The position numbers and the translations under genes were made by a program. A DNA stretch of 60,045 nucleotides. It comes from Chryseosolibacter histidinae. GTDB taxonomy: Bacteria; Bacteroidota; Bacteroidia; Cytophagales; Cyclobacteriaceae. The stretch lies in contig NZ_JAHESF010000042.1 of assembly GCF_018598225.1 (NCBI RefSeq), forward strand, positions 1 to 60,045, in the 5' to 3' direction. Below are positions 2,355 to 52,724 of this stretch, piece by piece. Position 1 is the stretch's first letter; every line of letters starts with the position of its first letter. The notes under the pieces are model-generated. The model was not told the DNA's origin. It searched no databases and saw nothing but the letters and a program-made list of their open reading frames with translations.

Positions 2355-2377
2355 GTTTTTGCCCCTCTCAAAGAGGT

Positions 2378-4128: not shown

Positions 4129-4299
4129 TTGCCGGTTACCAGTTGCCGGTTTCGGGAGGTGTGTGTTTTCGAAGCATTGCTTCGATTCAAAGAGCAAGAC
4201 CAGAACCTCCTAAGCAAACCCAGTCTGAGCTGGCCATCCGGAAACCGGCAACCGGCAACCAACCCAAACTTTAAACTTCAAACTTTAAACTTTAAACTC
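4129..4299. repeat. Heptad-periodic inverted repeat in the arginase-mtaB spacer
   Basis: The left arm begins just after the arginase stop with GTTGCCG/GTTACCA/GTTGCCG units. The right arm (about 4232-4299) is the reverse complement: CCGGAAACCGGCAACCGGC-type units, then a run of AAACTTT/AAACTTC units, all spaced by 7 bp. The centre contains a small perfect hairpin TCGAAGC-att-GCTTCGA near 4168-4184. The outer arm ends exactly at the mtaB -7 element. The same unit types recur in most spacers outside the long polysaccharide block. Confidence 0.85.
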
Positions 4300-9342: not shown

Positions 9343-11274
9343 TCACCTGTCGGTGATACCAGCGCCGATGTTATCGAGCACTTCGAACCTGGAGTAATTG
9401 CTTCTGAACTCAGGCACCAGCTCCTTCATCAACGCCACCATCTTCAGCTCGTTCTTGTCATTGATCAGATCGTTGAACAGCTCGATGTAGCTATTGATCT
9501 CCCCGTATTCGTAGGTCATTACACGGGCGATCATGATCTTTTCGTGGTGTGTAGGGATGGTGTTCTCCTTATCGTTCAGCAGCTCTTCGAACAGCTTTTC
9601 ACCGTTGCGCAGGCCCGTGAATACAATGTCGATGTCTTTGCCGGGCACCATGCCCGAAAGCAGGATCATCTTCTTGGCGAGGTCGAGTATCTTTACAGAC
9701 TGCCCCATATCGAAAATGAAGATCTCGCCTCCACGGCCCATGATGGCAGCCTCCAGCACCAGCTGACACGCCTCCGGAATGGTCATGAAGTAACGGGTGA
9801 TCTCAGGGTGGGTCACAGTGATAGGACCACCTTTTTCGATCTGCTGTTTAAAGACAGGAATAACAGAACCGTTCGAGCCAAGAACATTACCGAAACGGGT
9901 GGTCACAAAAGAGGTGTGACTGTTTCCGAGCTTTTGAAGCTCGTTGTTCAGCGATTGAACGTAGATCTCGGCAATCCGTTTAGAACATCCCATGATGTTG
10001 GTAGGGTTCACCGCCTTATCAGTGGAGATCATCACGAATTTCTGCACCTGCTGCTCTACGGCCACATCGGCCAGGTTCTTTGTACCCAGGATATTGCACA
10101 GTACGGCCTCGCTCGGGTTGTTCTCCATGAGCGGAACGTGCTTGTAGGCGGCAGCATGGAACAGGATATCAGGCTTATGCTCTTTCAGGATCGCCCGGAT
10201 CCGTTCTTTATTGACAATGTCGGCTACGTAAGAAAAGATCGGGGTCTCGAATCCAAGCGATTTGATCTCACGGTCGATCTCAAACAACGGGGACTCTGCC
10301 TGATCGATCAATACAATAAGCTGCGGATGGTGGTGGGCTACCTGCCGTACCAGCTCGCTACCGATAGATCCGGCGGCTCCGGTAATACAGATCTTCTTTC
10401 CCTTGATCTGGCGATTAACGCTGGGGTTCTCAAGCTTGATGGGATCGCGCTCGAGCAGGTCTTCGATGTGGATCTCCTTGATCTGGCTGAGGCTCAGCTC
10501 TCCCTTCACCCACTTTTGAACGGGTGGCACCACGCGCACCTTCACCTGGTTTCTCAAGCAGATATCCACGATCTCGTTTTTCCGGTCCATCGACAGGTTC
10601 TTCACGGTAATGATCACTTCATCCACGTTCAGTCCCAGTAAAAGGCCATCGAGGTCTTCTCCATCGGCGCTGTAGATCTTCGAACCGTTGATAACCTTGC
10701 CGATCTTGTTGCGGTCGTCTTCCAGGAAACCGACCACCCTCGACGACGGTGAAGAATCAATAACGTGTTTGGTAATGATGCCGGTCTGGCCGGATCCGAA
10801 AATCAGCACCTTGGAGTTCTTAACGATACCGCGGTTGTAGAATGAGAATACGTACTTGACCAGCAACCGGTAGTTGAACAGGAACAGGAAAGAAGCGAGG
10901 CCGGTGATCAGTACTACCGAATACGGAATGAGGTTATGGCCGCCGTTATTGTAATAGATCCGGTTCACGCACCATGCCAGAATAGAATTCAGGATCACCA
11001 TGAAGAAGATCCTTACGCCATCCTGGATGCCCGTATACCGCACGATACCCTGGTGGCTACTGGTGATCAGGATCGCCACCAACGCACAGGCTGAGGTCAG
11101 CAGCACGCCCGAGCCAATGTTATTATTGATGATATCCGCCGTCATGAAGTTGAAGCGGAGCAGATATCCCAGCACACAGGAAATAGAAATAAAGAAAATA
11201 TCGATGATGATAATAACCCACCGGGGAAGGATACGGAAGTTATAGATCCACCTGATTACTGAATATTGAAACAT
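9343..11274 (-). CDS. Membrane-bound nucleotide-sugar 4,6-dehydratase (PglF/WbpM/CapD type)
   Basis: 643 residues. Four membrane segments lie in the first 150 residues (about 20-40, 55-75, 88-103, 117-137). A first Rossmann fold starts with IFGSGQTG (158-165), and the catalytic SDR domain carries GAAGSIG (299-305) and STDKAVNPTN (417-426). Met428 replaces the usual Tyr of YxxxK before Lys432, as is normal for large WbpM/PglF enzymes. These dehydrate and isomerise UDP-GlcNAc to the 4-keto-6-deoxy sugar, the first step to bacillosamine, FucNAc or QuiNAc. The aminotransferase and acyltransferase that would follow are encoded at 17.8-20.6 kb. It is the last gene of the minus-strand locus. Confidence 0.92.
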   Translation of the reverse strand: MFQYSVIRWIYNFRILPRWVIIIIDIFFISISCVLGYLLRFNFMTADIINNNIGSGVLLTSACALVAILITSSHQGIVRYTGIQDGVRIFFMVILNSILAWCVNRIYYNNGGHNLIPYSVVLITGLASFLFLFNYRLLVKYVFSFYNRGIVKNSKVLIFGSGQTGIITKHVIDSSPSSRVVGFLEDDRNKIGKVINGSKIYSADGEDLDGLLLGLNVDEVIITVKNLSMDRKNEIVDICLRNQVKVRVVPPVQKWVKGELSLSQIKEIHIEDLLERDPIKLENPSVNRQIKGKKICITGAAGSIGSELVRQVAHHHPQLIVLIDQAESPLFEIDREIKSLGFETPIFSYVADIVNKERIRAILKEHKPDILFHAAAYKHVPLMENNPSEAVLCNILGTKNLADVAVEQQVQKFVMISTDKAVNPTNIMGCSKRIAEIYVQSLNNELQKLGNSHTSFVTTRFGNVLGSNGSVIPVFKQQIEKGGPITVTHPEITRYFMTIPEACQLVLEAAIMGRGGEIFIFDMGQSVKILDLAKKMILLSGMVPGKDIDIVFTGLRNGEKLFEELLNDKENTIPTHHEKIMIARVMTYEYGEINSYIELFNDLINDKNELKMVALMKELVPEFRSNYSRFEVLDNIGAGITDR

Positions 11275-16138: not shown

Positions 16139-16555
16139 TTAAGGATGTTGCCGGTCTTTCCTTGCCAGTCGCTGGTAATACACGGCGGGAATGATCAGGA
16201 TCATCAGGGTTGGATTCACGATCAGTCGGTGAAACTGTGAAAGAAACGGAGAAGAGATCTCGGAGTCGCCTTCCAGCGAAAGCTTAACCACCAGGTACAG
16301 CGGCAACAGCACCAGCAGATCAATGACCTGTACCCACAATGCCAGCTTTAAGATACGGGTGTCGGCAAAAAGCGCATACAGCACCAGCAGCATGAAGATG
16401 TCGTTGAGAAATATGCGGGCGAGCCGGTTTATGGAGAAGTGCATCTCCGGACTGAGCTGCGCCTGGCTGATGAGTGCCAGCACGTCTGTTCGCTGAAACA
16501 GGAACACAAATGCCAGACCGGCTACACCGGCTGCCCCGATGGCAACACGTTTCAT
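16139..16555 (-). CDS. Exosortase F system-associated membrane protein
   Basis: 138 residues from the ATG at 16555, which overlaps the XrtF stop by one base (TGATG); the longer frame upstream is inside XrtF. Four hydrophobic segments are visible (about 4-20, 49-65, 72-89 and 115-131). Its size, topology and place directly after xrtF fit the exosortase F-associated protein family, whose role is unknown. The assignment leans on gene order; the sequence shows LSPEMHFSINRLARIFLNDI between helices one and two. Probably needed for XrtF activity or stability. Confidence 0.75.
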   Translation of the reverse strand: MKRVAIGAAGVAGLAFVFLFQRTDVLALISQAQLSPEMHFSINRLARIFLNDIFMLLVLYALFADTRILKLALWVQVIDLLVLLPLYLVVKLSLEGDSEISSPFLSQFHRLIVNPTLMILIIPAVYYQRLARKDRQHP

Positions 16556-17079
16556 CAGGCGTTGACCGTGTTCCACCTGCCAAAGTTTTTGATCCAAAAA
16601 TACCACAGCACAAATACCACGGCATAAAGAATACCCGTGAAAAAGAACTTATGAAAGAAGTACAATTGCTGCGGATAATAGAAGGCAATGCCGTACAACG
16701 CTGCCAGGCGCAACACATTCATAATATAAATGACCGCAATTCCAGCAAAAGCAAATTTCAGCAGCGCCTTCCATGCGCCCCGGAACGCGATCAGAAAGCA
16801 CAGGTAGACAATGATGACATTGACGCTGTTACATCCTTCGTAAACCTCGATCACGGTGACGCCATTGCGCACCAGCGGAACATTGATGCTCCCCGTTACC
16901 TGCACAACCGAAACGGGCTCATCGAACATGCGCAGAAAGGCAGCGGTCTGCCGCGTGATCGCCAGGGTCAGCGGATCTTCTTCCTCGTAATGATCGATGT
17001 AAAATGCATACAGGGTGTTGAGCACCAGGTAAAGGGCCAGATACCGGAGGAGAAAATAGATCGCGGGTTTGTAATTCAT
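16555..17079 (-). CDS. xrtF: Exosortase XrtF
   Basis: 174-residue polytopic membrane protein with the exosortase/archaeosortase catalytic set: Cys83 in YEGCNSVNV, Arg124 in MNVLRLAAL and His143 in FFHKFFF, each at the membrane edge of a helix. It is short, like XrtF, not fused to extra domains. Exosortases cut C-terminal sorting signals as substrates leave the membrane; they usually sit in or near exopolysaccharide loci, as here. The start overlaps the preceding acyltransferase by 4 bp (ATGA) and the end overlaps the partner gene. The likely substrate in the window is the PID-CTERM-like protein at 11.4 kb. Confidence 0.88.
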   Translation of the reverse strand: MNYKPAIYFLLRYLALYLVLNTLYAFYIDHYEEEDPLTLAITRQTAAFLRMFDEPVSVVQVTGSINVPLVRNGVTVIEVYEGCNSVNVIIVYLCFLIAFRGAWKALLKFAFAGIAVIYIMNVLRLAALYGIAFYYPQQLYFFHKFFFTGILYAVVFVLWYFWIKNFGRWNTVNA

Positions 17080-17717
17080 CGCTTCACGGATTTGGCTGGA
17101 ACACCCACCACTGTATGACCGGCCGCAACTTCTTTGATAACAACCGCTCCTGCTCCTACTTTGCTGCTGTTGCCGATGGTCAGGTTCTGAAGAATAACAG
17201 CGCCAGTGCCCAGCAGCACTTCTTCACCGATGTGCACGTTGCCTGAAATACGGCAGCCCGGCATGATAGCGGTAAAAGCGCCGACCTGCACATCGTGACC
17301 AATGGTGGTGTCCAGGTTAACGATCACAAATGCACCGAGCGTAATGCCTGTGGTGAGGATCACTCCCGCGGTAATGATCGTTCCCTGCTCAAAGATATTG
17401 GTATCGCTGCCAGTCTGCGCCGATGGATGGACCAGCACAGGAAACTGTATGAGGGAATTGCTGATCTGAGCAATGATCTTCTTGCGGGCCTGCGGGTTTG
17501 AAATGGCTACTGCTACCGAGAGCGGAGCAGTGGTAGTATTCAGGTCGTGAACGCCACCAAGCACGGGCAGCCCATCGATCTGCGCACCCTTCTGTTTTCC
17601 GTCATCGAAAAAGCCCAGCAGGTCCCACTGTTTTTGATGCGCATTGATCTGCTGCACCATCAAAGCTGTTTCGCGTCCCAAACCACCGGCTCCGTAAATA
17701 ACGAGGTCAGATACCAT
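17076..17717 (-). CDS. NeuD/PglD-family sugar acyltransferase
   Basis: 213 residues. The N-terminal Rossmann-like PglD domain starts with VIYGAGGLGRET; the C-terminal half is a left-handed beta helix made of hexapeptide repeats (FVIVNLDTTIGHDVQVGAF, IGEEVLLGTGAVI). His in IGHD is at the place of the catalytic base of PglD. Members transfer acetyl or other acyl groups to an amino or hydroxyl group of nucleotide sugars. It is the first gene after the aminotransferase at 17.8 kb, with a repeat between, and overlaps xrtF. One of this gene and the acyltransferase at 19.9 kb probably acts on the 4-amino sugar. Confidence 0.85.
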   Translation of the reverse strand: MVSDLVIYGAGGLGRETALMVQQINAHQKQWDLLGFFDDGKQKGAQIDGLPVLGGVHDLNTTTAPLSVAVAISNPQARKKIIAQISNSLIQFPVLVHPSAQTGSDTNIFEQGTIITAGVILTTGITLGAFVIVNLDTTIGHDVQVGAFTAIMPGCRISGNVHIGEEVLLGTGAVILQNLTIGNSSKVGAGAVVIKEVAAGHTVVGVPAKSVKR

Positions 17718-17838: not shown

Positions 17839-18960
17839 TTAAAGCATTTTACCAACCAGCGTAGTGATCTTTTCAAGCTGTGCATCCGTGAGGCTGCTGC
17901 CGGAGGGCAGACACAGGCCACGTGCAAACAGGTCCTCGCTCGCCTTCGAACCATAATAAGGGGTTCCGTTGAAGACCGGCTGCAGGTGCATGGGCTTCCA
18001 TAACGGGCGGCTTTCGATGTTCTCTTTCTCCAGCGCCAGCCTCACCGTTTCGGGGGTAAGCTTGCTGGTAGCAGGTAAAAGCATACACGTGAGCCAACGG
18101 TTAGAAACACTGCCGGGAAGCTCAGGCTGAAACGATACACCCGGCAGTCCGCCCAGTATTTTTTTATAGTAGTCGTATATAGCCCTGCGACGTGCCACCC
18201 GCTGGTCGAGCACTTTCAGCTGGCCGCGTCCGATGCCTGCACTGATGTTGCTGAGCCTGTAATTGTATCCGATCTGTGAGTGCTGGTAATGCGGCGCCTG
18301 GTCACGGGCCTGGGTAGAGAGGAACTTTGCCTGCTTCACCCATTCTGCATTCTCCGATACAAGGGCTCCCCCACCCGAGGTTGTAATGATCTTGTTGCCG
18401 TTGAAAGAGTAAATGCCGATGTCGCCGAACGATCCCAGCTTTTTTCCCTTGTAAAGTGAGCCAAGGCCCTCTGCAGCGTCTTCGATGATCTTGATGTCAT
18501 AGTGACGGGCGATGGCCACGATCTCTTCCATCTGCGCCGGCATGCCATACAGGTGCACCACGATGATGGCCTTGGGTTTCTTTCCCTTCCTGATCCTGTC
18601 TTCAATGGCTGACCGAAGTGCCTGAGGGTCCATATTCCAGGTGCTATCTTCTGAATCCACATACACCGGGGTGGCACCCTGGTAAACAATGGGATTACAG
18701 CTGCCGGCAAAGGTGAAGCTCGAGCAGATCACTTCGTCATGCTGCTTCACGCCCAGCATGATCAGGGCGAGATGAATGGCAGCAGTGCCCGAAGACAAGG
18801 CTGCGCAATGAGGTGTATTGTTATAATCCGCCAGCTCCTTCTCGAACAGGTCGAGGTGAGGACCTGCGGGTGAAATCCAGTTCGATTGAAACGCTTCCTG
18901 TACAAACTTCAGCTCGTCACCTCCCATGTGCGGCGGTGACAGATAGATTCTTTCGTTCAT
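17839..18960 (-). CDS. DegT/DnrJ/EryC1/StrS aminotransferase (PglE-like)
   Basis: 373 residues, normal for the family. PLP-binding Lys190 lies in YSFNGNKIITTSGGG and Asp161 in EDAAEGLGS; the substrate loop has ALSSGTAAIHLAL near 54-66. The N-terminus (IYLSPPHMGGDELKFVQEAF) and the NGNK context are typical of PglE/LegC-type enzymes that aminate UDP-4-keto-6-deoxy-GlcNAc. With the dehydratase at 9.3 kb and an acyltransferase on either side it would complete a UDP-2,4-diamino-2,4,6-trideoxyhexose pathway. Flanked by heptad repeats on both sides, with its own promoter-like motif. Confidence 0.88.
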   Translation of the reverse strand: MNERIYLSPPHMGGDELKFVQEAFQSNWISPAGPHLDLFEKELADYNNTPHCAALSSGTAAIHLALIMLGVKQHDEVICSSFTFAGSCNPIVYQGATPVYVDSEDSTWNMDPQALRSAIEDRIRKGKKPKAIIVVHLYGMPAQMEEIVAIARHYDIKIIEDAAEGLGSLYKGKKLGSFGDIGIYSFNGNKIITTSGGGALVSENAEWVKQAKFLSTQARDQAPHYQHSQIGYNYRLSNISAGIGRGQLKVLDQRVARRRAIYDYYKKILGGLPGVSFQPELPGSVSNRWLTCMLLPATSKLTPETVRLALEKENIESRPLWKPMHLQPVFNGTPYYGSKASEDLFARGLCLPSGSSLTDAQLEKITTLVGKML

Positions 18961-19106: not shown

Positions 19107-19859
19107 TCACTTAGTCAGTGCTAGTTTGGCCAGCCCTCCGTATTCATGAATGACCAGGGCCATCATGTGGATCTTGGCTGACGATGGCCAGAAGTCGTAG
19201 GCATTTTTCTGAGGGTCGCGTTTGATGTAGTGGTCCGTGGGTGCCGCCACCGGAGCCAATCCCTCACGCTCGAAATACTTCATGGCCCTGCGCATGTGAA
19301 AAGCACTGGTTACCAGCACGAGCTTGTGCTGCTTTCCAAATCGCCGGCTATAGTCCTTTGCTTCTTCCGCCGAGTTTGCCGGTGTTGGTACCATCAGCGT
19401 ATCGGCGGGTGCCACGCCCAGCTCGAGCGCAGCCTTCGCCAGCATCTCAGCTTGTGGGATGCGGCCCGACGCCGAGTATCCGCTGCACACGATCCTGCTA
19501 CCGGGCAGCAGGCGGTGAAGGCGGATCGCTTCATTCAGCCTTGCGCGGGCGGGATCAGAGAGCTGATTTAAATGAGGCAGGCCGGGTGCATAGGCATGTC
19601 CTGCGCCCATGACCAGGATGTGCACGTCGGGTGCACCACCGGCCTCCGCGATATCAACCACGGGGTATGTGTCTTCCAGGCGATGAATGAGCCACTGAGG
19701 CACCGGTGAGATGCTGATCACGAAAAACCAGATCGCCGCTGTATAAAGACAAATTTGGAACAAGCGCTTTTTACCGAACCTGCGCGCGACCAGGCACACA
19801 ATGATCAGCAGCCACAGGATCACCAGCGGATGAAGCATGTCGTTGAAGAATCTGTACAT
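19107..19859 (-). CDS. YdcF/ElyC-family (DUF218) membrane protein
   Basis: 250 residues with two N-terminal membrane segments (about 9-24 and 33-52) followed by a DUF218 domain: ILVMGAGH, RLNEAIRLHRLLPGSRIVCSG and LVTSAFHMRRAMKYFEREG. This domain order is that of E. coli ElyC, linked to envelope polysaccharide and lipid-carrier homeostasis; the biochemical activity is unknown. Here it lies between an acyltransferase and an aminotransferase of the amino-sugar pathway, so a role in the lipid-linked steps is plausible but unproven. Confidence 0.8.
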   Translation of the reverse strand: MYRFFNDMLHPLVILWLLIIVCLVARRFGKKRLFQICLYTAAIWFFVISISPVPQWLIHRLEDTYPVVDIAEAGGAPDVHILVMGAGHAYAPGLPHLNQLSDPARARLNEAIRLHRLLPGSRIVCSGYSASGRIPQAEMLAKAALELGVAPADTLMVPTPANSAEEAKDYSRRFGKQHKLVLVTSAFHMRRAMKYFEREGLAPVAAPTDHYIKRDPQKNAYDFWPSSAKIHMMALVIHEYGGLAKLALTK

Positions 19860-19915: not shown

Positions 19916-20569
19916 TCATATTTTTTGCGTGGCGATAACTTTCTCCTTAAACCTGTAAAACACCACGGTATCGTCTTCCACTGATTTATCGAGCACCATG
20001 CCTGCGGCGATCTTGTTCCTGTTGCCCACGGTGATACCGGGTATGGTGGCGCTGTTGATGCCGAAGAGGTTATCGTCGCCCACTTTGGTGAATCCCGAAA
20101 AAGATACGTTCGGACTGATAAAATTGTGTTGCCCCACAGCGCTGTCGTGCCCGAGGCTTACCCGCGCGTTGAGCAATGTAAAGTCCCCCACTTCCACATT
20201 AGGGCCGATGTTGACGTATGGTGCAATGACCACACCGGTGCCGATCTTCGCTGACGGCGAGACATACGCCACGGGATGGATAACGGTTGCAAAGCGCGCG
20301 CCTTCCGCCAAAAAGCGCTCGACGATGGGCCTGCGGTAAGCCAGGTTGGCAATGCCCATCACGTATTGCTTATCTTTCTGGATCACGTGCTCACGGATGC
20401 TGCCTAAAAAAGGTGCTGATAATTTATAACGCGCATAGCTGGCGGGGTTGTCGTCAATAAAACCTGCCACTTTGAAGGCTGGTGTTTTGCTACGGTCAAA
20501 CCCGGCGAATGCGATGTATTCGTCGATCTCGGCGGCGTGTCCTCCTGCGCCTATGATGATAACTTCCAT
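19916..20569 (-). CDS. PglD/NeuD-family acyltransferase
   Basis: 217 residues from the ATG at 20569; a longer frame would start inside the SDR gene. The start MEVIIIGAGGHAAEIDEY is the PglD-domain signature, and residues about 90-205 are hexapeptide repeats (GTGVVIAPYVNIGPNVEVG, FTLLNARVSLGHDSAVG), with the catalytic-base His in LGHDS. It follows ACP, KAS III and SDR genes in the same orientation, so it is the best candidate to move an acyl group from the ACP to the 4-amino group of the nucleotide sugar. A plain acetyltransferase is the alternative. Confidence 0.83.
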   Translation of the reverse strand: MEVIIIGAGGHAAEIDEYIAFAGFDRSKTPAFKVAGFIDDNPASYARYKLSAPFLGSIREHVIQKDKQYVMGIANLAYRRPIVERFLAEGARFATVIHPVAYVSPSAKIGTGVVIAPYVNIGPNVEVGDFTLLNARVSLGHDSAVGQHNFISPNVSFSGFTKVGDDNLFGINSATIPGITVGNRNKIAAGMVLDKSVEDDTVVFYRFKEKVIATQKI

Positions 20570-20601
20570 GAATGATTGAATGAATGATTTTAATTTTCTC
20601 G

Positions 20602-21366
20602 TCAGCGTGCGGTGTAACCTCCGTCGACCATCAGGTTTGTTCCCGTGATCCATCGTGATGCATCCGACAGCAGGAACACGCAGGCGTTGGCCACATCTTC
20701 CGGTTCGCCCAGCCCCAGGGGGTGATAGCTCCTGATCTTTTCAAGCGAAGCCTCGTCCTGGCTATAGACAGCACTGCTGCTCATGGGTGTAACCACCACA
20801 CCGGGAGAAACACAATTGACCCTGACCTTTTTCGGCGCCAGCTCCAGCGCCAATGATTTCGCACCCGCCACCAGCGCTCCTTTGGTAAGGCTGTACAATG
20901 TTTTGCCGGCTTCTCCCACCACACCCATCACCGAGGTTATAAAGACCACGCTCGCGCCTTCCTTCGCCGCATAGCCCGGCCGGGTGAGCAGCCTGGTCAG
21001 GTTGATGGAAGCGTTCACGTTCGTTTTGAAAAAATTACTAAGCTTATCTTCCGAAATATTCCGCAAAGGCAGCGTGGTGGAAATGCCGGCGCTGTGAATC
21101 ACACCGTGAATACCGCCAAGGTCTTTCAACGCGGCGAGCTTCTCTTCTGTTTCCGCCGCCTCGGTCAGGTCCATGGGCAGGATCCGGTGATGTGAATGAT
21201 CCATCAATGACAATGTCTCGCCGAGCCTGACTTCATTGCGGGCGATCAGGATCACCTTCGCTCCCACTCTGCTGCAGGATATGGCGCACTGGCGGCCGAT
21301 GCCTGATGAAGCACCGGTCACTACAATCACTTTTCCACGCAGGTCAAAAGGATGATGCGCTTCCAT
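20602..21366 (-). CDS. SDR-family reductase, FabG-like
   Basis: 254-residue classical short-chain dehydrogenase. The nucleotide motif is TGASSGIG (17-24), with Arg44 after the second strand suggesting NADPH; the catalytic set is Ser145, Tyr158 and Lys162 in YSLTK, and the C-terminus ends ITGTNLMVDGGYTAR. It resembles FabG-type ketoacyl reductases. It starts 2 bp after the KAS III stop, so I infer that it reduces the 3-ketoacyl product of that enzyme, possibly to a hydroxyacyl-ACP. A sugar oxidoreductase cannot be excluded by sequence. Confidence 0.82.
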   Translation of the reverse strand: MEAHHPFDLRGKVIVVTGASSGIGRQCAISCSRVGAKVILIARNEVRLGETLSLMDHSHHRILPMDLTEAAETEEKLAALKDLGGIHGVIHSAGISTTLPLRNISEDKLSNFFKTNVNASINLTRLLTRPGYAAKEGASVVFITSVMGVVGEAGKTLYSLTKGALVAGAKSLALELAPKKVRVNCVSPGVVVTPMSSSAVYSQDEASLEKIRSYHPLGLGEPEDVANACVFLLSDASRWITGTNLMVDGGYTAR

Positions 21367-21368
21367 GG

Positions 21369-22427
21369 TCAGACCTCAACCAGTTCACTGATGTGGCAAT
21401 TTTCAAAATTCATCACGGCGGTAGCCCACGACATGCCCACACCAAAACCACACAGCAGCATTTTTTTAGATTCAGCAAGATTGTCTTTCAGCTGAGAGAC
21501 AATGGTGAGCGGAATGGATACCGATGACGTATTGCCAAATTTCTCGATCGAGGCCGGAACTTTGCTGTTGTCGAGCTTCAGCTTATTCTTCAGGTAATCG
21601 TTCATGTAACTATTGGCCTGATGGAATACGAAGTAATCGAGGGAGTCCATCGCCGTATTGGAAAAAGACAACAATTTCTTAATGTCTTTCGGGATCTCCA
21701 GCAGCACAAAATTGAAGACATCGGCGCCGTTCATGTATCCGTGCTCTTCGGAGCGGATGTTGCCGTGCTCGTCCACCACTTTTTCTTCCAGGGTCTCGGG
21801 CGTGCTGGGGTTCCTGTATCCGCCAGCGTTCACCTTGATGAGCGATTCTTTGGAACCATCTGAGTTCAGCGAGAACCAGGCATTGCCATACTTCTCGTCA
21901 CGTTCGATGAGCGCTGCCACGCCGCCATCCCCGAACAGGAAAGCGGTCTTCCTGTCTTTGGGTGAATAAATGCGTGAGCGTGTTTCTCCATCCAGTAAAA
22001 GCGCTTTGCGGAAGCCACCGGTCTGCATCATGGAATAGACCACCGAGAGGCCGTACACAAAAGCGGAGCAGCCGAGGTTCATATCAAAAGCCGCCGTTTG
22101 TTTGGAGAGTCCGAGGCGTTCCTGCAGCAGCACACCCGTTGCGGGCATCCTGTAGTCAGGTGTTTGCGACACGAAGATGAGCAGATCTATTTCGCTGCGA
22201 TCAACGTTCAGGTCGGCGATCAGGCGCTCGGCAGCTGCGAAGCAGAGGTCGGAAGAGCAGATGTTGGCCGGCGCGAATCTTCTTTCTTTAATGCCGGTCT
22301 TCTCTACAATATCCCTGACAGAATCCTTATCAAAATACTGCGTGTATTCGTAATTGTTAACAACCTGTTTTGGCACCGCTGCGGCAAGGCCACGAATGCC
22401 AACACCGTTAAAAGAGATTAATGCCAT
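21369..22427 (-). CDS. 3-oxoacyl-ACP synthase III (KAS III/FabH-like)
   Basis: 352 residues with the full KAS III triad: Cys120 in NLGCSAFVYG, His269 in FVFHQAN and Asn299 in FGNTSS. The N-terminus reads GIRGLAAAVPKQVVNN. KAS III condenses an acyl-CoA with malonyl-ACP. The location between a dedicated ACP and an SDR in a sugar locus, away from other fatty-acid genes, argues for making a special short acyl group instead of general lipid synthesis. The length is somewhat above E. coli FabH (317), as for DarB/CerJ-like sugar-locus relatives. Confidence 0.88.
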   Translation of the reverse strand: MALISFNGVGIRGLAAAVPKQVVNNYEYTQYFDKDSVRDIVEKTGIKERRFAPANICSSDLCFAAAERLIADLNVDRSEIDLLIFVSQTPDYRMPATGVLLQERLGLSKQTAAFDMNLGCSAFVYGLSVVYSMMQTGGFRKALLLDGETRSRIYSPKDRKTAFLFGDGGVAALIERDEKYGNAWFSLNSDGSKESLIKVNAGGYRNPSTPETLEEKVVDEHGNIRSEEHGYMNGADVFNFVLLEIPKDIKKLLSFSNTAMDSLDYFVFHQANSYMNDYLKNKLKLDNSKVPASIEKFGNTSSVSIPLTIVSQLKDNLAESKKMLLCGFGVGMSWATAVMNFENCHISELVEV

Positions 22428-22435
22428 TGATGGGT

Positions 22436-22669
22436 TTAATTTTTAGCGGCAGCACGTTTTGCCACTTCATTGAAAAGATCTTCGACCGTGATCAGTTTTT
22501 GAAATACTTCGTCCTCGATCGTTACATCAAACTGGTCGTCAAGGTTTGCGATCAGCGAGAGGCGGCCCAGCGAGTTCCATTCGTCGTAATCGCGAAATTT
22601 GTCACTCATGGTGATTGGCCGGTCTATTTCCAAAGCTTCCTTGAACGATTCTATAAACTTGTCTTTCAT
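22436..22669 (-). CDS. Acyl carrier protein
   Basis: 77 residues from the ATG at 22669. Four-helix acidic protein with the phosphopantetheine serine at Ser33 in DEWNSLGRLSL; the usual Asp before the serine is Asn. The C-terminal half (VTIEDEVFQKLITVEDLFNEV) is the recognition helix II/III region. It is not the housekeeping AcpP type but a locus-specific carrier. It lies 8 bp before the KAS III gene and behind its own -7-like element. Confidence 0.88.
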   Translation of the reverse strand: MKDKFIESFKEALEIDRPITMSDKFRDYDEWNSLGRLSLIANLDDQFDVTIEDEVFQKLITVEDLFNEVAKRAAAKN

Positions 22670-22702: not shown

Positions 22703-23308
22703 TTAATTGCCTTTAAAAGATTCCATGGTGGCCGACCCGGAGGCACTGATGCCCTCCCGTTTGAATACTTTGCTGACCGTCATGAAGAGGATCTTCATAT
22801 CGAGGCGAAAAGACAGGTGCTCCACGTAGTAAACATCCAGCTCGAAACGCTCGGGCCATGAAATAGCATTGCGGCCATTGACCTGCGCCCAACCCGTGAT
22901 GCCTGGCCTCACCTCGTGGCGGCGTGCCTGCCGTGCGTTGTACAACGGAAGGTACTTCACCAGCAACGGCCGGGGGCCGATCAGGCTCATGTCGCCCAGC
23001 ACTACGTTGATCAATTGCGGAAGCTCGTCAAGGGATGTGGACCGGACAAACTTACCCACGCGGGTCAGCCTGTCCCTGTCAGGAAGCAGTGCGCCGTTGC
23101 TGTCACGCTTATCGTTCATGGTCTTGAACTTCAGCACCCTGAACACCTTACCTCCCCTGCCAGGCCGCTGCTGTGTAAAAAATGGTTTCCCTGAATTTAC
23201 AAAACTGAGAATGACCGTCACGATCAGGATCACGGGCAGGGCGATCAGCAGCGCGAAACCCGCTACAACGATGTCGATGGCCCGTTTAAAAAAGCTGCGG
23301 TACATCAT
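22703..23308 (-). CDS. Initiating phosphoglycosyltransferase (PglC-like sugar transferase)
   Basis: 201 residues, the size of small monotopic PglC-type enzymes. One hydrophobic re-entrant helix (about 12-32) is followed by the catalytic core: FRVLKFKTMND, TSLDELPQLINVVLGDMSLI with the Asp-Glu pair, and GPRPLLVKYLPLY, then PGITGWAQVNGR. It transfers a sugar-1-phosphate from the nucleotide sugar to undecaprenyl phosphate at the inner membrane. With the dehydratase, aminotransferase and acyltransferase nearby, the likely first sugar is a diamino-trideoxyhexose. This is the only such enzyme in the window. It overlaps the preceding glycosyltransferase by 4 bp. Confidence 0.92.
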   Translation of the reverse strand: MMYRSFFKRAIDIVVAGFALLIALPVILIVTVILSFVNSGKPFFTQQRPGRGGKVFRVLKFKTMNDKRDSNGALLPDRDRLTRVGKFVRSTSLDELPQLINVVLGDMSLIGPRPLLVKYLPLYNARQARRHEVRPGITGWAQVNGRNAISWPERFELDVYYVEHLSFRLDMKILFMTVSKVFKREGISASGSATMESFKGN

Positions 23309-28756: not shown

Positions 28757-29404
28757 TCATCCAATATTCAGTGGTGGCAGCGTTTTGATCTTTCTTGCCG
28801 GCACGCCAACGGCAAGGGAATTGTCAGGCACATCTTTCGTAACAACAGCTCCGGCCCCCACAACCACGTGATTGCCGATGACCACATTGGGCAGGATGAT
28901 GGCGCCACTACCAATGGAGCAGAAGTCGCCTATCGAAGCGCCACCCAGCACGGTTGCCCGCGGCGAGAGCTCGCAGTAACGGCCCACCGTCACATCGTGG
29001 TGAACGGCAGCAAAGGCGTTGACGAGGCAACCTTCACCGATGCGCACGCTGTTGCTGATCATTACAAATTCCATCACATTCAACCCTTCACCGAGGCTTA
29101 CATCAAAATGACCTGTTCGCGACGTAGCAGCAACAACCGAGACCAACTTTCCTCCGGCGGTACGCAGCTTCGATGCCACTTTCCAACGGTTGGCCGGGCT
29201 GCCGAGCCCCAGGATGAATCGCGGATCCTTTTCGAAAATCACCGCAGCCTGCTCAACACTTTTCACTACCGGAAACCGGCCATAAAAAAGCTCCGGACCT
29301 CCTTTGCTGATGTCGTCAAAGAAATAAAGATCATCAAGGCTTTCCTGCTGGTGCAGTAATTCCAGTATCTCTTTCGCGTGTCTGCTGGCGCCGGCTACGA
29401 TCAT
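28757..29404 (-). CDS. NeuD/PglD-family sugar acyltransferase
   Basis: 215 residues. The N-terminal PglD domain (MIVAGASRHAKEILELL) has GASRH where others have GAGGH; the C-terminal hexapeptide helix includes FVMISNSVRIGEGCLVNAFA and IGSGAIILPNVVIGNHVVVG, with the base His in VHHDVTVG. It starts 2 bp after the aminotransferase at 29.4 kb, so the two probably work in sequence to make an N-acylated amino sugar, in the manner of VioA/VioB. Confidence 0.85.
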   Translation of the reverse strand: MIVAGASRHAKEILELLHQQESLDDLYFFDDISKGGPELFYGRFPVVKSVEQAAVIFEKDPRFILGLGSPANRWKVASKLRTAGGKLVSVVAATSRTGHFDVSLGEGLNVMEFVMISNSVRIGEGCLVNAFAAVHHDVTVGRYCELSPRATVLGGASIGDFCSIGSGAIILPNVVIGNHVVVGAGAVVTKDVPDNSLAVGVPARKIKTLPPLNIG

Positions 29405-29406
29405 GT

Positions 29407-30486
29407 TCAGTTATTTTGAACCCTCAGCATAAGCCTCGCCACAAAATCGATCTCCTCTTTGGTGAGCGAATGGTAAATGGGGAGACACAGGATGCGGGTG
29501 CTGACAGTTTTGGTGACGGGCAGATTGGCCTCCTTCACGTAGGGCAGGCTATCGAGCGAGGGATAAAAATATCTTCTCGGATAGATCCAGTTCCTGTTAA
29601 GCTCCTCGACGATGCGCAGTGTGATGTCTTCTGACGGCAGCACGATGGGGTAATAGGCGTAGTTGAACTCGGCGTGTTTGCTGACCACCGGTCTTTCATG
29701 GCGCAGGTTCTTCAGCACTTTGTCATAGTAAAGGCTTTGCGTGCGCCTGCTTTCCAGGATGGAGGCGATATGATTCAGGTTTACCAGCCCCATGGCGGCA
29801 TGAAACTCGGAGTTCTTGCCATTGATGCCCAGGTCGGCAAATCTTTCGGGGCCGTCGTGCCCGAAGTTACGCAGGTACGACATTTTCTTCAGCAGCTCAG
29901 GCCTGGTCGTAAACACCGCTCCTCCTTCTATGGTATGATAAAGTTTGGTAGCATGAAAACTGGTGGTGCTTACGTCGCCATACTCGAATACCGATCTTCC
30001 CTTGTACTTCGTGCCGAAGCAGTGGGCGGCATCGTAGATCACTTTGAGATTATGCTTTTTCGCAATGGTTTCTATGGCATCGATATCGCAGGGAATACCG
30101 TAAACGTGCGTGGCCAGGATGGCTGACGTTTTCGGCGTGATGGCAGCTTCAATTTTGGAAGGATCGATGTTCAGCGACGAGGGGTCGATGTCAACAAATA
30201 CCGGTGTGCATCCTTCCCACACAATGCTGCTGGTGGTGGCCACATAAGAGAATGGTGTGGTGATGATCTCTCCTTTCAGGTCGAGCGCTTTGATGGCGAT
30301 CTGAATGGCAATGGTACCGTTGGTCATATACAACAGGTGATTGACATTCAGATACTCCTTCAGCTTCAGCTCCAGCTCATTGACCAGCGGGCCATTGTTG
30401 GTGAGCCAGTTGCGCTCCCAGATACCATCCAGATATTTATCAAACTCTGCTCTTGGCGGTAAGAATGGTTTTGTTACTTGTATCAT
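29407..30486 (-). CDS. DegT/DnrJ/EryC1/StrS aminotransferase (VioA/WecE-like)
   Basis: 359 residues. PLP lysine Lys181 in TTSFHATKLYHTIEGGA and Asp152 in YDAAHCFG, where Tyr replaces the usual Glu before Asp. N-terminus IQVTKPFLPPRAEFDKYLDGIW. The SFHATK context is typical for 4-aminotransferases acting on dTDP-4-keto-6-deoxyhexoses. Paired with the acyltransferase that follows. If it acts on the same 4-keto intermediate as the ketoisomerase enzymes at 49 kb, the cell would make two different dTDP-amino sugars. Confidence 0.87.
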   Translation of the reverse strand: MIQVTKPFLPPRAEFDKYLDGIWERNWLTNNGPLVNELELKLKEYLNVNHLLYMTNGTIAIQIAIKALDLKGEIITTPFSYVATTSSIVWEGCTPVFVDIDPSSLNIDPSKIEAAITPKTSAILATHVYGIPCDIDAIETIAKKHNLKVIYDAAHCFGTKYKGRSVFEYGDVSTTSFHATKLYHTIEGGAVFTTRPELLKKMSYLRNFGHDGPERFADLGINGKNSEFHAAMGLVNLNHIASILESRRTQSLYYDKVLKNLRHERPVVSKHAEFNYAYYPIVLPSEDITLRIVEELNRNWIYPRRYFYPSLDSLPYVKEANLPVTKTVSTRILCLPIYHSLTKEEIDFVARLMLRVQNN

Positions 30487-36893: not shown

Positions 36894-38147
36894 TTACTTG
36901 ATCAGATCTATTAAGGGCACATCATTATCAACAAACGGCGCTGTCAATGGATTACCGACCACCGTCATCATTCCCAGTGTATTAAAACCAACCCTTATTT
37001 CAACAACGATGAACAGGAGCGCCGCCAGGATGAACGGGATTCTGATCCACTGCGGGAATAAATTACCCTGATGTGTTTGCACAAAAAGAAATAACGCTGC
37101 AACGATGATCATCAGCGAGACCAGCTGAAACCTCACGCCCAAAGACGGGACACTGATCATCAGGTTGGTTAAGGTAAACAGCATCAACCCGAATGAAAGA
37201 ATGCTCGCCGTTGTATGATCTTTCGCAATGGTGCCTCTGTACTTGAAAAAGATAATGGCCAACATCACGTTGATCACATACATCAGCGCCACCACTCTCC
37301 ACCGGATGTACCAGTTGGTTTGCTGGGGAGCCACGTTGACTTTTTCAAGATATTCTTTGCTGACATAAGTGCTCGAGCGTTGTTCCAGCACCGTGGGCAG
37401 AAAGCTCGCGTAGGTTCTCAGCGCATCGGGGCTGACCTGCGAAATAAAGAAGGAAGAAAAATAGAGCAGTAAAAGTAACAGCAGGCGGTTGCCCACAAGA
37501 AAATAGATCAGCAAAATAACCGCAGGCAGCACAAAGCTGAAATGAACGAGCAGCGACGAAAGGCAGATCAGGAAACCGCGTATTCTATGGCCTGCCGAGA
37601 TCTGAAAGAGGCCGTAAACAAATATGTGCGCCGCCGTCCAGAACCTGAATCCATTGATCTGCCAGATGGCCACGATGAGCGCGAACAATATGATAAACAG
37701 GATCGCTTCCTTTTTTAGCTTGTGTTCTACAAAAGACAAAAGAAACCAAAGGTTGCGCGAGTAGAAAAAGCCGAAGATCAATCCGAAGAAAGCGAACAGC
37801 ACCCTGCCGTTATCGGTGAACCTTGAAACGATAAAGGTCAACAAAGGCTGCACCACATCGATGTAGCTTGTCTGCTCGCTGTAAAGCAGCTGGGTAAAGT
37901 CGCTCAGGCCGAGGCCGTGCTCTTTTGAGAAACGGCTCAGGTTCAGCTGATACCGGTTGGCATCGATATCATTGTTTGAAATAACAAAGGTGAATCCATA
38001 AAACACAATGAACAACCAGACGAGGTTTCTGGCACCAGAGAATTTATAATTGCGCACAGCCGCTATCAGTGCCCCGAAAGGCATGATCAGAAACAACACG
38101 AAAGGTACAGGTGCTGCGTTGGCCGCGCGGTTCAATGGCTGGTTCAA
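36894..38147 (-). CDS. EpsG/Wzy-like polysaccharide polymerase
   Basis: 417-residue integral membrane protein with about ten hydrophobic helices and a conserved N-terminal loop (NNDIDANRYQLNLSRFSKEHG) typical of EpsG-family proteins. These are taken as Wzy-type polymerases. The frame starts at TTG, which overlaps the upstream stop (TTGA); the next ATG is at codon 22, so the start is uncertain. It is the only polymerase candidate here, fitting one flippase and one initiating transferase. Confidence 0.83.
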   Translation of the reverse strand: MNQPLNRAANAAPVPFVLFLIMPFGALIAAVRNYKFSGARNLVWLFIVFYGFTFVISNNDIDANRYQLNLSRFSKEHGLGLSDFTQLLYSEQTSYIDVVQPLLTFIVSRFTDNGRVLFAFFGLIFGFFYSRNLWFLLSFVEHKLKKEAILFIILFALIVAIWQINGFRFWTAAHIFVYGLFQISAGHRIRGFLICLSSLLVHFSFVLPAVILLIYFLVGNRLLLLLLLYFSSFFISQVSPDALRTYASFLPTVLEQRSSTYVSKEYLEKVNVAPQQTNWYIRWRVVALMYVINVMLAIIFFKYRGTIAKDHTTASILSFGLMLFTLTNLMISVPSLGVRFQLVSLMIIVAALFLFVQTHQGNLFPQWIRIPFILAALLFIVVEIRVGFNTLGMMTVVGNPLTAPFVDNDVPLIDLIK

Positions 38148-42921: not shown

Positions 42922-43707
42922 TTAATACGTTACTGATGTATATTGTCCATCCCTGTTTGCCGAATCATAAAAGTACCTGTACAGCTTTCGTTCCATTGGC
43001 TTGTCGCTGATGTATTCTACATTTTCCTTCAGCAGCTTAGCCGGTACTCCGCCAAGCATAATGCAGGAGGTATGGGTACTTGTGTAATTTTTATTGCATA
43101 CGCTGCCGACGGCTACGATACAACAGTCAGGCAGTTGTGTTCCTTTCAATACCGTGACCCTGCTCCCGAGCCAAACCTGATTGCCGATGCTGACCGGTGC
43201 CGTGTTATCCGGAATACTGTTCAAGGCTGTGTCCCGGATAAAATGAAAGTCTGTATCGAAGAGCTGACATTCCCATGAGCCCATAAAATTATCGCCAATG
43301 GTCATACTCCTAAAAGAAACGATCTTTGAAAAACTACCGAACCATGCGTTGTTTCCCACTTCAAGCGATCCATTGGTCCATACAAGCAATTGCACCGCCC
43401 TCGAGAACTTGCACTCGCCTTTAAAGGTCAGGTTCCCTGACACTGAGATGCGCACAGGCTCGCGGGTGGCGATGATATTTTCATCTTCGCATCCGAATTG
43501 TATCATGCCTCTTTTCACGTTCTCCGCTTCTATCTGTATTTTCCCTGACATATCCGCCAGCTTCACCGGCCCGAAAATATATACAGGAAGTTTAAGCGCC
43601 CCACGCCAGCCAAATGCCCTGACATTAAAGTAGATCGTCTTCACAATATTTAATCTCACAAGCAACTTCAGGAACTCCCATGCGCGCGTCAACAAAAACC
43701 TAACCAT
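42922..43707 (-). CDS. Hexapeptide acyltransferase
   Basis: 261 residues from the ATG at 43707, which overlaps the flippase by 8 bp (an in-frame TTG lies 27 bp earlier). An N-terminal basic amphipathic region of about 40 residues precedes hexapeptide repeats: FKGECKFSRAVQLLVW, LEVGNNAWFGSFSKI, MTIGDNFMGSW, IGNQVWLGSRVTVLKGTQL. The FDTDFH segment has the catalytic-type His. Likely an O-acetyltransferase of the polysaccharide. Confidence 0.8.
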   Translation of the reverse strand: MVRFLLTRAWEFLKLLVRLNIVKTIYFNVRAFGWRGALKLPVYIFGPVKLADMSGKIQIEAENVKRGMIQFGCEDENIIATREPVRISVSGNLTFKGECKFSRAVQLLVWTNGSLEVGNNAWFGSFSKIVSFRSMTIGDNFMGSWECQLFDTDFHFIRDTALNSIPDNTAPVSIGNQVWLGSRVTVLKGTQLPDCCIVAVGSVCNKNYTSTHTSCIMLGGVPAKLLKENVEYISDKPMERKLYRYFYDSANRDGQYTSVTY

Positions 43708-45190
43708 TTCTCTTAAAAACCAGTTTATTAACAATTCCTTTCAGATCGATCCGGCGATTTATCTCATAATAAGAATAAACAACCGACAGGATCAATAAAG
43801 GTGCTGAAACAACGTACAATAAATTGCCTTCGATGTTTTTCGCCAGGACAAAACTTAATGCTGCGATTAGAAAATGCACTGCAAAAACCCTGTAGCATTC
43901 CGGGCTGAAAGCAAAGCCATAGCGATTACGAATGACTAAGAAATTCTGGACAACGGCGACGACATACGCAACTAAAAAAGAGATCCCAAGGCCTTCCAGT
44001 CCGAACAGGTAGTAACCAGCAATGTTCATCGCCAGTGTATAGACATTTGCGATCAGCTCATTATAGAAGAATACCTTTGTAGCGCCCTTGGCCATAAGCA
44101 TAAAACCCATTGCCCAGGCGACCGCTTTCAGGAATATTGCCATCACGATCCATTGCACCATGCCGAGTGACGCGAGGAATTGCGTGGAATACAATACGAC
44201 GATCGCAAATTTTATAAAGATCAAAAAGAGGATCAGGATCGGGCCGAGGATCAAAAGGGTCATTTCAGCCTGGTGGTTGAGCAGCGACCTGGCCTGCCCA
44301 TCATCGTGCGCTACTGCCGAGAGTCTGGGATAATAATCCGTGCTCATCGCCGTAAAGACCATACCTACATATGTATTCACAATCGCAAAGCCGGCATTGA
44401 AGAGGCCCACATCTTCCACGCCACCGGTATTGCTGATATAGATCCTGGTAACGTATGAAGTTGCCAAGCCTATCACGCCACTCAGGCTGAGCAACACGCC
44501 CATCTTTACCATCCCCTTGCCCTCTTTGAAAAGGGTTGGCGTATCGAGCGGAACGGGAGCAACTTTCACCTTATTGCCAAAATAGTACGCGAGCATCATG
44601 GCCGACAGGGAGGTCAGCACCAGGGCTGGCACGATGCCGTCCACGCCATAATAGTAATAAACCGGCAGCGACACGATCAACCCTATGGTGGCACCCGCCA
44701 CATTGGCCTTGGCAAGATAAGCCACCTTTCGAAGACCCTGCAACAACACATACTGGCCATTGCTCAGCGTGCTGAATAACAGCGTCACCGACAGCCACAC
44801 AAATCCCAGCGTGTAATCCCTGTTGCCGAAGGTGATCTCGCTAAGCCAGGGAGACAGCACGATCACAACCCCTGTTCCCAATAAACCGGTGATCCAGACC
44901 AGCCTTCTCAGCGCGCTTGTTACCAGCGCAACCCGGTTCATATCACCCGTTGCATTGGCTTCGGAAACATTCTTCACTGCGCTCACATTCAGACCCAGCG
45001 ACGTGATGCCGGTGATCAACGTGGTGGCTGATGTAAACAACCCGGAGATGCCCATCCCCGCTGTGCCCAGAAGAACAGCAACGATCTTGGTCCGTACAAT
45101 GGTCAGCACGATCTGATAGAACTGAACACCACCGAAGATGGAAGTGGCCTTCATGATCTGACGGTACGATGACTGATTTGTGTTGGACAT
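43700..45190 (-). CDS. wzx: Wzx-type O-antigen/capsule flippase
   Basis: 496 residues, about 12-14 hydrophobic helices, polysaccharide-transport/MOP superfamily. The start (SYRQIMKATSIFGGVQFYQI) and the long alternating segments fit O-antigen translocases that flip undecaprenyl-linked repeat units to the periplasm. Only flippase in the window. No conserved catalytic motif is expected; the call rests on topology, length and neighbours. Confidence 0.88.
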   Translation of the reverse strand: MSNTNQSSYRQIMKATSIFGGVQFYQIVLTIVRTKIVAVLLGTAGMGISGLFTSATTLITGITSLGLNVSAVKNVSEANATGDMNRVALVTSALRRLVWITGLLGTGVVIVLSPWLSEITFGNRDYTLGFVWLSVTLLFSTLSNGQYVLLQGLRKVAYLAKANVAGATIGLIVSLPVYYYYGVDGIVPALVLTSLSAMMLAYYFGNKVKVAPVPLDTPTLFKEGKGMVKMGVLLSLSGVIGLATSYVTRIYISNTGGVEDVGLFNAGFAIVNTYVGMVFTAMSTDYYPRLSAVAHDDGQARSLLNHQAEMTLLILGPILILFLIFIKFAIVVLYSTQFLASLGMVQWIVMAIFLKAVAWAMGFMLMAKGATKVFFYNELIANVYTLAMNIAGYYLFGLEGLGISFLVAYVVAVVQNFLVIRNRYGFAFSPECYRVFAVHFLIAALSFVLAKNIEGNLLYVVSAPLLILSVVYSYYEINRRIDLKGIVNKLVFKRNG

Positions 45191-51926: not shown

Positions 51927-52718
51927 TTATTTACTTAAGGTAAAGGCCACCAGGATCAGGGAAAGAGTAGAAACGACCACAGTGAAGTTCTGACCAAAAT
52001 ACTTCCTGAAGGGACGTTGCTTCAACGGAGGCACGATCAGCACATCATTCTGATAAACATAGTAATAAGGCGAATTGATAAAATTCTCATCCAGCAGGTT
52101 CACATACTGCACTTCGGTCTTTCCGCCGTGCTGCCTGATCAGCTTGATGTTCGAGCGGTCGGCCAGGTCACTCAGTCCGCCTGCCTGCCCGATGGCTTCC
52201 AGCAGGGTTACCCGGTTGTTGCTCAGGGTCACCGTTCCCTCCTGGGCCACCTCACCGAGCAATGTAAAACGATAGTTCAGCAAACGTACCTTCACCACTG
52301 GCGATTCAAGATACTGGTTGGCCAGCTGCTGAAGTTTATCCTGGATCTGAAAAACCGTGAGGCCGGCTACCTTGATCTTGCCTACTGCGGGAAATGGTAT
52401 TTCGCCATTGTCGTCAACCAGTTCTCCGATGAGCAGCGCCCCGCTTCCGGTGGCCATGTTACCGCCCATCTGCTGGAGGTTCTTGTTGGAGAGGAAATCG
52501 TATTTCTCAGGTGTAAGACTTTCAAAACGAACCGAGATCAGGTCGTTCGACTGGATCTTGTAATCGAAGGTGTCAGGCTGATACGACCGCAGGACAGTAT
52601 CTTTGGGGATGCCCGTTTGGTGGAGGTCGTTCTTCTGTAAAAGGGTCACTTTCTTGTTCGAAACACAGGCGCTAAAAAGTAATAAGGCAAGAACAAAAAA
52701 CAGCCATATTCGCGTCAT
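51927..52718 (-). CDS. wza: Wza-like polysaccharide export lipoprotein
   Basis: 263 residues from the ATG at 52718 (a GTG lies 6 bp before). The signal peptide ends in the lipobox LFSAC with lipid-anchored Cys18. Poly_export region: [18 protein letters not shown]; one SLBB-like region: [31 protein letters not shown]. Shorter than E. coli Wza (379); the C-terminus has a hydrophobic segment ([13 protein letters not shown]) instead of the usual amphipathic helix. Outer-membrane export channel, paired with Wzc 4 bp downstream. Confidence 0.9.
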
Positions 52719-52724
52719 TTTCAC

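Follow-up and report, generated by a model that had tools for sequence, protein, structure and literature searches.

A putative private acyl-synthesis cassette for a surface polysaccharide in Chryseosolibacter histidinae

The closest described counterpart of the locus considered here is the wfpB–G gene set of Flavobacterium psychrophilum, for which an R-group pathway was proposed in 2019; as set out in the relevant passages of PMC6519341, a private acyl route is predicted to acylate UDP-Qui2NAc4N, and strains that differ in their R-group genes also differ antigenically. We analysed a window of 60,045 nucleotides from Chryseosolibacter histidinae (the whole stretch G000:C59:1-60045, part of an 8.04-Mb genome), which carries in a row the genes for an acyl carrier protein (ACP), a class III ketoacyl-ACP synthase (KAS III; KAS for such synthases in general), a short-chain dehydrogenase/reductase (SDR) and a PglD-type N-acyltransferase. 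The same elements stand together in wfpB–G, which brings a PglC homologue, an ACP, a 3-ketoacyl-ACP synthase, a 3-ketoacyl-ACP reductase and a PglD homologue; unlike the window, F. psychrophilum has two ketosynthases and a 3,5-dihydroxyhexanoyl product (passages of PMC6519341). The structure of its O-polysaccharide is known. This likeness was drawn from the published description, not from a direct sequence comparison. The principle was already proposed for F. psychrophilum, and the window looks like a simpler, single-condensation version of it. Together the four genes probably form a private type II kit that runs one round of acyl synthesis on behalf of a surface polysaccharide; it is predicted to attach a C4 chain of the 3-hydroxybutyryl type to the 4-amino group of UDP-Qui2NAc4N.

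Such a product would be a known kind of substituent, because 3-hydroxybutyryl groups occur elsewhere. The part of PMC3210612 that treats them records N-[(S)-3-hydroxybutyryl] bacillosamine in Pseudoalteromonas and QuiNAc4N with (S)-3-hydroxybutanoyl in Plesiomonas, together with (3S,5S)-3,5-dihydroxyhexanoyl in F. psychrophilum and the same group, with its configuration given as undetermined, in Vibrio cholerae O3. The Acinetobacter qhbCB/gdr genes have been assigned to QuiNAc4N with (S)-3-hydroxybutanoyl (passages of PMC9676051), and both they and WeeI/J/K (passages of PMC3628348) resemble the window in combining a dehydratase, an aminotransferase and an acyltransferase for QuiNAc4N bearing 3-hydroxybutanoyl; unlike the window, neither set has a private ACP, KAS or reductase named in those passages, and the acyl group is the (S)-3-hydroxybutanoyl form. 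With the PglF–PglE–PglD–PglC pathway of Campylobacter jejuni to N,N'-diacetylbacillosamine, the window shares the nucleotide-sugar route and the family of the initiating transferase. We know of no private acyl synthesis for that pathway. C. jejuni PglD adds acetyl (passage in PMC6519341), unlike the acylation proposed here.

The cassette genes follow one another with gaps of 8, 2 and 32 bp (Table 1). An earlier note on this DNA had placed the four genes in this order, and coordinates, domains and catalytic residues all confirm it. The private ACP is 24% identical to E. coli AcpP. KAS III has the Cys-His-Asn triad C120/H269/N299, invariant across 20 aligned homologues; it is 30% identical to E. 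coli FabH, with a methionine aligned to FabH Phe87, and stays under the cut-off of the narrower fabH model TIGR00747 (228 versus 292.1 bits). We file it as a putative KAS III, not as housekeeping FabH. An alignment to E. coli FabG finds the catalytic residues N116, S145, Y158 and K162 in the SDR, and the N-S-Y-K set is kept in 102 of 102 SDR open reading frames (ORFs) of at least 35% identity within the loci described below. The protein scores below every FabG model cut-off among the 25 families listed of 234 (TIGR01830, 144.5 bits, cut-off 297.75), and we file it as an SDR whose FabG-like function we infer. The positions of FabG R129 and R172, which we take to be ACP docking residues, are lysines in the window's SDR and vary among the 102 SDRs. 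For the acyltransferase the credible start is the ATG at 20569, as the longest-ORF start at 20653 would overlap the SDR gene.

On the sugar side, PDB matches uphold the neighbouring PglE-like aminotransferase and PglC-like transferase of the earlier note. The former best matches 1o61 and 4ztc, both presumably C. jejuni PglE, and its best NCBIfam match is the LegC family aminotransferase (389.2 bits, under the cut-off of 420). A PglF-like dehydratase, on which the note was silent, best matches WlaL, which we take to be PglF of C. jejuni. Because PglC-, PglE- and PglF-like matches occur together, this set predicts UDP-Qui2NAc4N as the first sugar; homologues of all three have been assigned to UDP-Qui2NAc4N in F. 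psychrophilum (passage in PMC6519341).

In the pathway that we propose, KAS III, with its intact triad, would form acetoacetyl-ACP from malonyl-ACP and a starter bound to CoA, in the simplest case acetyl-CoA, and the SDR would reduce the acetoacetyl-ACP to 3-hydroxybutyryl-ACP. The PglF- and PglE-like enzymes would supply UDP-Qui2NAc4N, and the PglD-type enzyme would move the chain from the ACP to its 4-amino group; the PglC-like enzyme would put the acylated sugar phosphate on its lipid carrier, starting a Wzx/Wzy-type polymer. Within positions 8001–36900 of the window, no ORF resembled E. coli FabD or, at E 1e-5, FabF, the FabD search having been confined to the window; loading of malonate onto the private ACP would for this reason fall to housekeeping FabD.

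Table 1. Features of the window discussed in the text (strand of all entries: minus).
Feature	Coordinates	Strand	Evidence and remarks
PglC-like polyprenol-phosphate sugar-1-phosphate transferase (putative initiating enzyme)	22703..23308	-	best PDB match 8g1n, N,N'-diacetylbacillosaminyl-1-phosphate transferase, E 5.1e-77, residues 2-200
Private ACP, 77 aa	22436..22669	-	ATG at 22669; phosphopantetheine Ser in WNSL; Pfam PF00550 PP-binding 25.9 bits, cut-off 20.8
KAS III, single condensing enzyme of the cassette	21369..22427	-	ACP_syn_III domains; NCBIfam NF006829 (beta-ketoacyl-ACP synthase 3) 258.3 bits, cut-off 249
SDR, proposed 3-ketoacyl-ACP reductase	20602..21366	-	Pfam PF13561 (184.4 bits) / PF00106
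PglD-type N-acyltransferase, distinct clade	19916..20569	-	PglD_N (PF17836) and hexapeptide (PF00132) above cut-off
DUF218 / ElyC-like protein	19107..19859	-	Pfam PF02698; NCBIfam ElyC model matched below cut-off
PglE-like DegT aminotransferase, proposed UDP-4-keto to UDP-4-amino step	17839..18960	-	Pfam PF01041 339 bits; best PDB matches 1o61 (E 1.6e-109), 4ztc (E 9.8e-109)
Second PglD-type acyltransferase (PglD2)	17076..17717	-	usual CoA-type C-terminus GVPAK; NCBIfam NeuD/PglB/VioB family 193 bits, cut-off 160.8; best PDB match 4m98
XrtF-like exosortase	16555..17079	-	TIGR04128 135 bits, cut-off 90
PglF-like membrane UDP-GlcNAc 4,6-dehydratase	9343..11274	-	Pfam PF02719 393.1 bits; best PDB match 5bju WlaL, E 1.4e-91
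Third PglD-type gene	28757..29404	-	adjoins DegT aminotransferase 29407-30486
EpsG-like protein	36894..38147	-	below its cut-off
Wzx-type flippase	43700..45190	-	upstream of cassette
Wzc-like gene	49550..51922	-	
Wza-like gene	51927..52724	-	

The private status of the carrier and pathway, also claimed in the earlier note, is borne out by the rest of the genome. An ACP gene lies directly before a FabF gene over cut-off (C39:13002 and 13275), another short-frame ACP is on C80 and a second FabF over cut-off on C45; KAS III matches to the cassette enzyme occur on other contigs at 32, 31 and 26% identity (FabH-like on C45 at 32% and on C39 at 31%), as do three phosphopantetheinyl transferase matches, and the nearest other SDR of the genome at E ≤1e-25 is 34% identical. 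Because housekeeping-type ACP, FabF and FabH-like genes thus lie elsewhere, we regard the cassette, as judged from its genes, as a private pathway. That the four genes instead serve general fatty-acid or lipid A synthesis, a role that would accord with the type II fatty-acid synthesis families to which their products belong, is very improbable given this separate set, the patchy occurrence of the KAS, found in 8 of 196 family genomes including its own and in neither of the two same-genus genomes listed (family search, E 1e-70 or better), and the position of the cassette beside PglC-like or glycosyltransferase genes in many relatives. With the housekeeping genes separate and the KAS patchy, we rejected this role. 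Elsewhere in the genome, G000:C43:69699-91525 brings together matches for FabF-like proteins, ACP and phosphopantetheinyl transferase, at a guess a locus of the aryl polyene or flexirubin type.

Relatives were sampled with the KAS (196 family genomes at E ≤1e-70 and 395 phylum genomes at E ≤1e-80, counts including the window's genome), and hits were obtained in 21 of the 395 phylum genomes in addition to the family genomes above; among 389 plasmid records all matches were below 60% identity. A profile scan of named genomes contributed the best 80 of 586 confirmed loci, a selection biased towards close relatives of the cassette KAS; these are, going by record title, mainly from Bacteroidota (with Chlorobium and Ignavibacteria), with a few from Opitutales, Methylotenera, an archaeon, Proteobacteria and Chloroflexi. 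Annotation covered 103 loci (27 stretches, the 80 loci and the window, minus the five duplicates L081, L083, L084, L087 and L120) by BLAST against proteins of the window and its relatives, an acyltransferase class being the best BLAST match to chosen references. KAS genes were counted on the same strand within 6 kb, where contig ends can hide genes, and PglE calls were made within stretches of limited length.

Thirty-one loci, the window included, carry the window's acyltransferase clade (32 sequences, as L097 has two). The recognised genes run ACP–KAS–SDR–acyltransferase in 28 of the 31, although unrecognised ORFs may intervene (2.3 kb in L017, for example), and since the same order recurs so often it is not due to chance; the exceptions are L014, with two SDR genes, and L015 and L108, with no SDR recognised in the cassette. 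Twenty-four of those 28 have the PglC-like gene immediately ahead of the cassette, and a PglC-like gene of at least 50% identity occurs within the stretch in 24 of the 31. As the loci had been recruited by KAS, a reverse search was run with the acyltransferase (E ≤1e-35, with a first pass that scores only some candidates), which recovered the enzyme in 7 genomes of the 395 and 8 of the 196; with the window's own these make up 14 different genomes, and in every one of them the start of its gene is no more than about 4.2 kb from that of the KAS gene. In the phylum sample, a KAS of at least 58% identity occurs in 12 genomes, seven with the window's acyltransferase clade, four with two KAS genes (G311, G333, G337 and G390) and one cut by a contig end (G561). 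In three of the 31 loci an AcpS-type phosphopantetheinyl transferase directly follows the acyltransferase (L013:12542-12901 and L017:14255-14617 by Pfam, L018 by BLAST), which supports loading of the ACP for this purpose in those loci; on the acyltransferase tree these three group together with support of 99/96. No phosphopantetheinyl transferase was found in the examined part of the window. FabD-like ORFs were seen in three examined loci (L123, L126 and L139), none of them of the window's acyltransferase clade. In L048, positions 1133–4240 between the PglC-like gene and the cassette hold a second ACP, an AMP-binding ligase (Pfam), another SDR and an uncharacterised 269-aa ORF, perhaps for another acyl group. 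A DUF218 gene follows the window's acyltransferase gene; among relatives and window together, 12 of the 31 clade loci have DUF218, versus 1 of 27 with other PglD types.

The acyltransferase itself has PDB matches to VioB, PerB and PglD, and its histidine region could be aligned with that of PglD. H141, D39 and D40 are invariant in 26 members of the ACYLTRANSFERASE clade, the clade of the window's enzyme; the catalytic histidine (PglD His125, Pcryo_0637 His142) and the UDP-binding aspartate pair are named in the relevant passage of PMC8040287. When 97 acyltransferases were placed on a tree, the clade received support of 98/97 (31 rows) and 100/100 (32 rows). The enzyme reaches 149.6 bits on NCBIfam TIGR03570, below the cut-off of 160.8, whereas PglD2 reaches 193. 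The C-terminal GxP[AS] loop occurs in 0 of 32 clade members versus 63 of 65 enzymes of four other PglD classes (L097:6826 has VGVPGK), whereas the motif RxK[EQ][KR] ends 30 of 32 clade members (RFKEK in the window) and 0 of 65 others. Since the loop is missing, we file the enzyme with a divergent clade of PglD rather than among the CoA-type PglDs. By count, the loop proline aligns with Pro213 of Pcryo_0637, which switches from trans to cis on CoA binding (passage in PMC8040287). In our reading, the loss of the CoA loop reflects an altered donor site, as would suit an enzyme fed by a carrier protein. In a predicted structure of the enzyme (pLDDT, a per-residue model confidence score, of 72), residues 198–217 fall below 50, so that the RxKE tail is not placeable; the best Foldseek matches of the model are of the same family, and PglB-ATD is matched weakly and with poor superposition (E 2.1e-05, root mean squared deviation 11.1).

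The number of ketosynthases may bear on chain length. Among 69 loci with a KAS identity of at least 51% (34 of the 103 were left out), those with the window's acyltransferase clade number 31, of which 30 have one KAS and one has two; the 27 loci with other PglD types have one KAS in 14, two in 12 and three in one, and the 11 loci in which no PglD type was found have one in six and two in five. Of the two-KAS loci with a recognised PglD type, 13 of 14 carry types other than the window's clade. The sole two-KAS locus of the clade, L014 (7014–13246), holds both acyltransferase types, two KAS, two SDR and one ACP genes, which looks as though it made both chains. In Chlorobium-type and Flavobacterium genomes, the two-KAS cassettes (L045–L047, L054, L055 and L145) resemble the window in their ACP, SDR and PglD-type enzyme and in a KAS of the same or a near clade, but differ in the second KAS and in their acyltransferases, which belong to other classes and have retained the GxP[AS] loop. 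Fisher's test for KAS number against acyltransferase type gives P = 9e-5, a statistic that ignores relatedness; on the acyltransferase tree, the KAS-number labels cluster (16 changes for one-KAS and 10 for two-KAS versus 32.0 and 28.5 in shuffles, with 0 of 500 as low), helped by near-copies. The pattern agrees with F. psychrophilum, whose C6 chain accompanies two ketosynthases. The link is an association in a biased sample, not yet a rule.

The window's cassette has one KAS and lacks the second ketosynthase of the wfp locus. The earlier note had drawn the F. psychrophilum parallel and expected a similarly unusual substituent; the pathway logic is indeed shared, but a C6 3,5-dihydroxyhexanoyl group appears less likely here, because of the one ketosynthase as against two and the locus's own acyltransferase clade. 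The same pathway and sugar could nevertheless yield another chain: a 3-hydroxyacyl group that is C5, longer or branched, if KAS III took up some other CoA starter, or 3,5-dihydroxyhexanoyl, if the single KAS acted repeatedly. The choice of starter differs among KAS III enzymes, the window's enzyme has its methionine at FabH Phe87, presumably a residue with a role in starter choice, and F. psychrophilum carries its C6 chain on the same kind of sugar; yet that organism has two KAS genes, two-KAS relatives carry other PglD types in all but one of the 14 loci counted above, and a KAS III priming with CoA is not expected to extend acyl-ACP. We consider such a chain unlikely; the one expected is a C4 chain of the hydroxybutyryl type, which the note had given as an example.

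As to the amine, the note's claim that a 3-hydroxyacyl chain is moved to the 4-amino group of the first sugar fits the gene set, with chain, stereochemistry and acceptor all predicted from it. Support for the target comes from five loci (L051, L077, L080, L082 and L088) in which no PglD type besides the clade enzyme occurs in the stretch, next to PglE-like (at least 50%) and PglF-like (at least 38%) genes; this makes the enzyme the only candidate in sight there for the 4-amino group. The window is more crowded: with PglD2 and a further PglD-type gene, both unmentioned in the earlier note, it totals three PglD-type genes and at least two DegT-type genes besides the PglE-like one. PglD2, which adjoins the PglE-like gene, keeps its GVPAK tail and passes the NeuD/PglB/VioB cut-off that the cassette enzyme fails, might therefore acetylate the 4-amino group of the first sugar, leaving the cassette to acylate another amine, for instance on the sugar of the DegT aminotransferase at 30486–29407. 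This arrangement seems improbable, since a PglD2-class ORF was recognised in only 4 of the 31 clade loci (the window, L015, L019 and L044), the second aminotransferase already has the third PglD-type gene as an adjoining partner, and the five relatives above manage with the cassette enzyme alone.

Several observations weigh against a C4 chain placed by this cassette on the 4-amino group. The CoA-type loop is present in the acyltransferases of two-KAS loci, for which dependence on ACP is likewise expected, so that loss of the loop is no proof of ACP use; 14 recruited one-KAS loci use ordinary PglD types, and one KAS does not, for that reason, require the window's clade. In L015 and L108 no SDR was recognised though KAS and acyltransferase are present, a PglE-like gene (at least 45%) was recognised in only 17 of the 31 clade loci, in stretches of limited length, and PglD2, beside the aminotransferase, could be the real 4-N-acetyltransferase. 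Starter choice is unreadable from 30% identity to FabH and the methionine at the Phe87 position, and for this organism the chemistry is predicted from the genes. Even so, the cassette is real, conserved and private, and it most likely works as a one-round route to a hydroxyacyl group on the first sugar, with a C4 product favoured.

The surroundings are those of a Wzx/Wzy-type surface polysaccharide locus, as glycosyltransferase genes lie upstream of the cassette together with Wzx-, EpsG-, Wzc- and Wza-like genes (Table 1). The cassette does not stand out in base composition (guanine-plus-cytosine fraction 0.51–0.55 per kb, against 0.43–0.55 in the rest of 9–40 kb). A TAnnTTTG box, which we take to be a promoter box consensus, lies between the PglC-like and ACP genes at 22695–22688 on the minus strand; it was discarded as a promoter candidate, the window holding 26 such boxes versus 26.7 expected by chance. 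The XrtF-like exosortase gene overlaps PglD2 by 4 bp, and the two also stand side by side in L015 and L019; deletion of xrtF in F. johnsoniae reduced biofilm and abolished zorbs (passage in PMC10936215). Two adjoining genes at 34636–36881 on the minus strand encode proteins (374 and 373 aa) that resemble each other on visual inspection; the first has no Pfam match, and similar-looking ORFs occur in L050 and L052.

Among open-licence PMC papers, only PMC6519341 emerged as a direct precedent, and Rochat 2017 (PMC5601056) contained none of five words on acyl genes for which it was searched. For the single-KAS form with its own acyltransferase clade, RxKE tail and phosphopantetheinyl-transferase-bearing relatives, no earlier description was found in the same body of papers; neither result is proof of absence. 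The family as a whole may hold a wider pattern, which we put forward tentatively, as a possibility short of an even chance: Bacteroidota would carry plug-in acyl kits in which KAS number and acyltransferase lineage set the chain, one KAS giving C4 (with the RxKE-tailed clade or some GxPA-tailed lineages) and two KAS with other GxPA-tailed lineages giving C6, in which the private route would make the (S)-epimer, and in which the RxKE tail, replacing the CoA loop, would be a docking surface for the private ACP.

Stereochemistry may be the key to why such kits exist. FabG-type synthesis gives R-3-hydroxyacyl chains. By the priority rules, we infer that both S centres of the F. psychrophilum group reflect S-selective reduction, and a private SDR of opposite selectivity would explain the keeping of a private pathway, which may exist because the (S)-3-hydroxyacyl epimer is not supplied by the R-specific housekeeping synthase. 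If true, stereochemistry would be the reason for one cell to run a private acyl pathway beside its general one, and the window's clade would represent PglD enzymes whose acyl donor is a carrier protein rather than CoA. Should the rule hold, the first-sugar substituent of many Bacteroidota surface polysaccharides would be readable from KAS number and acyltransferase clade.

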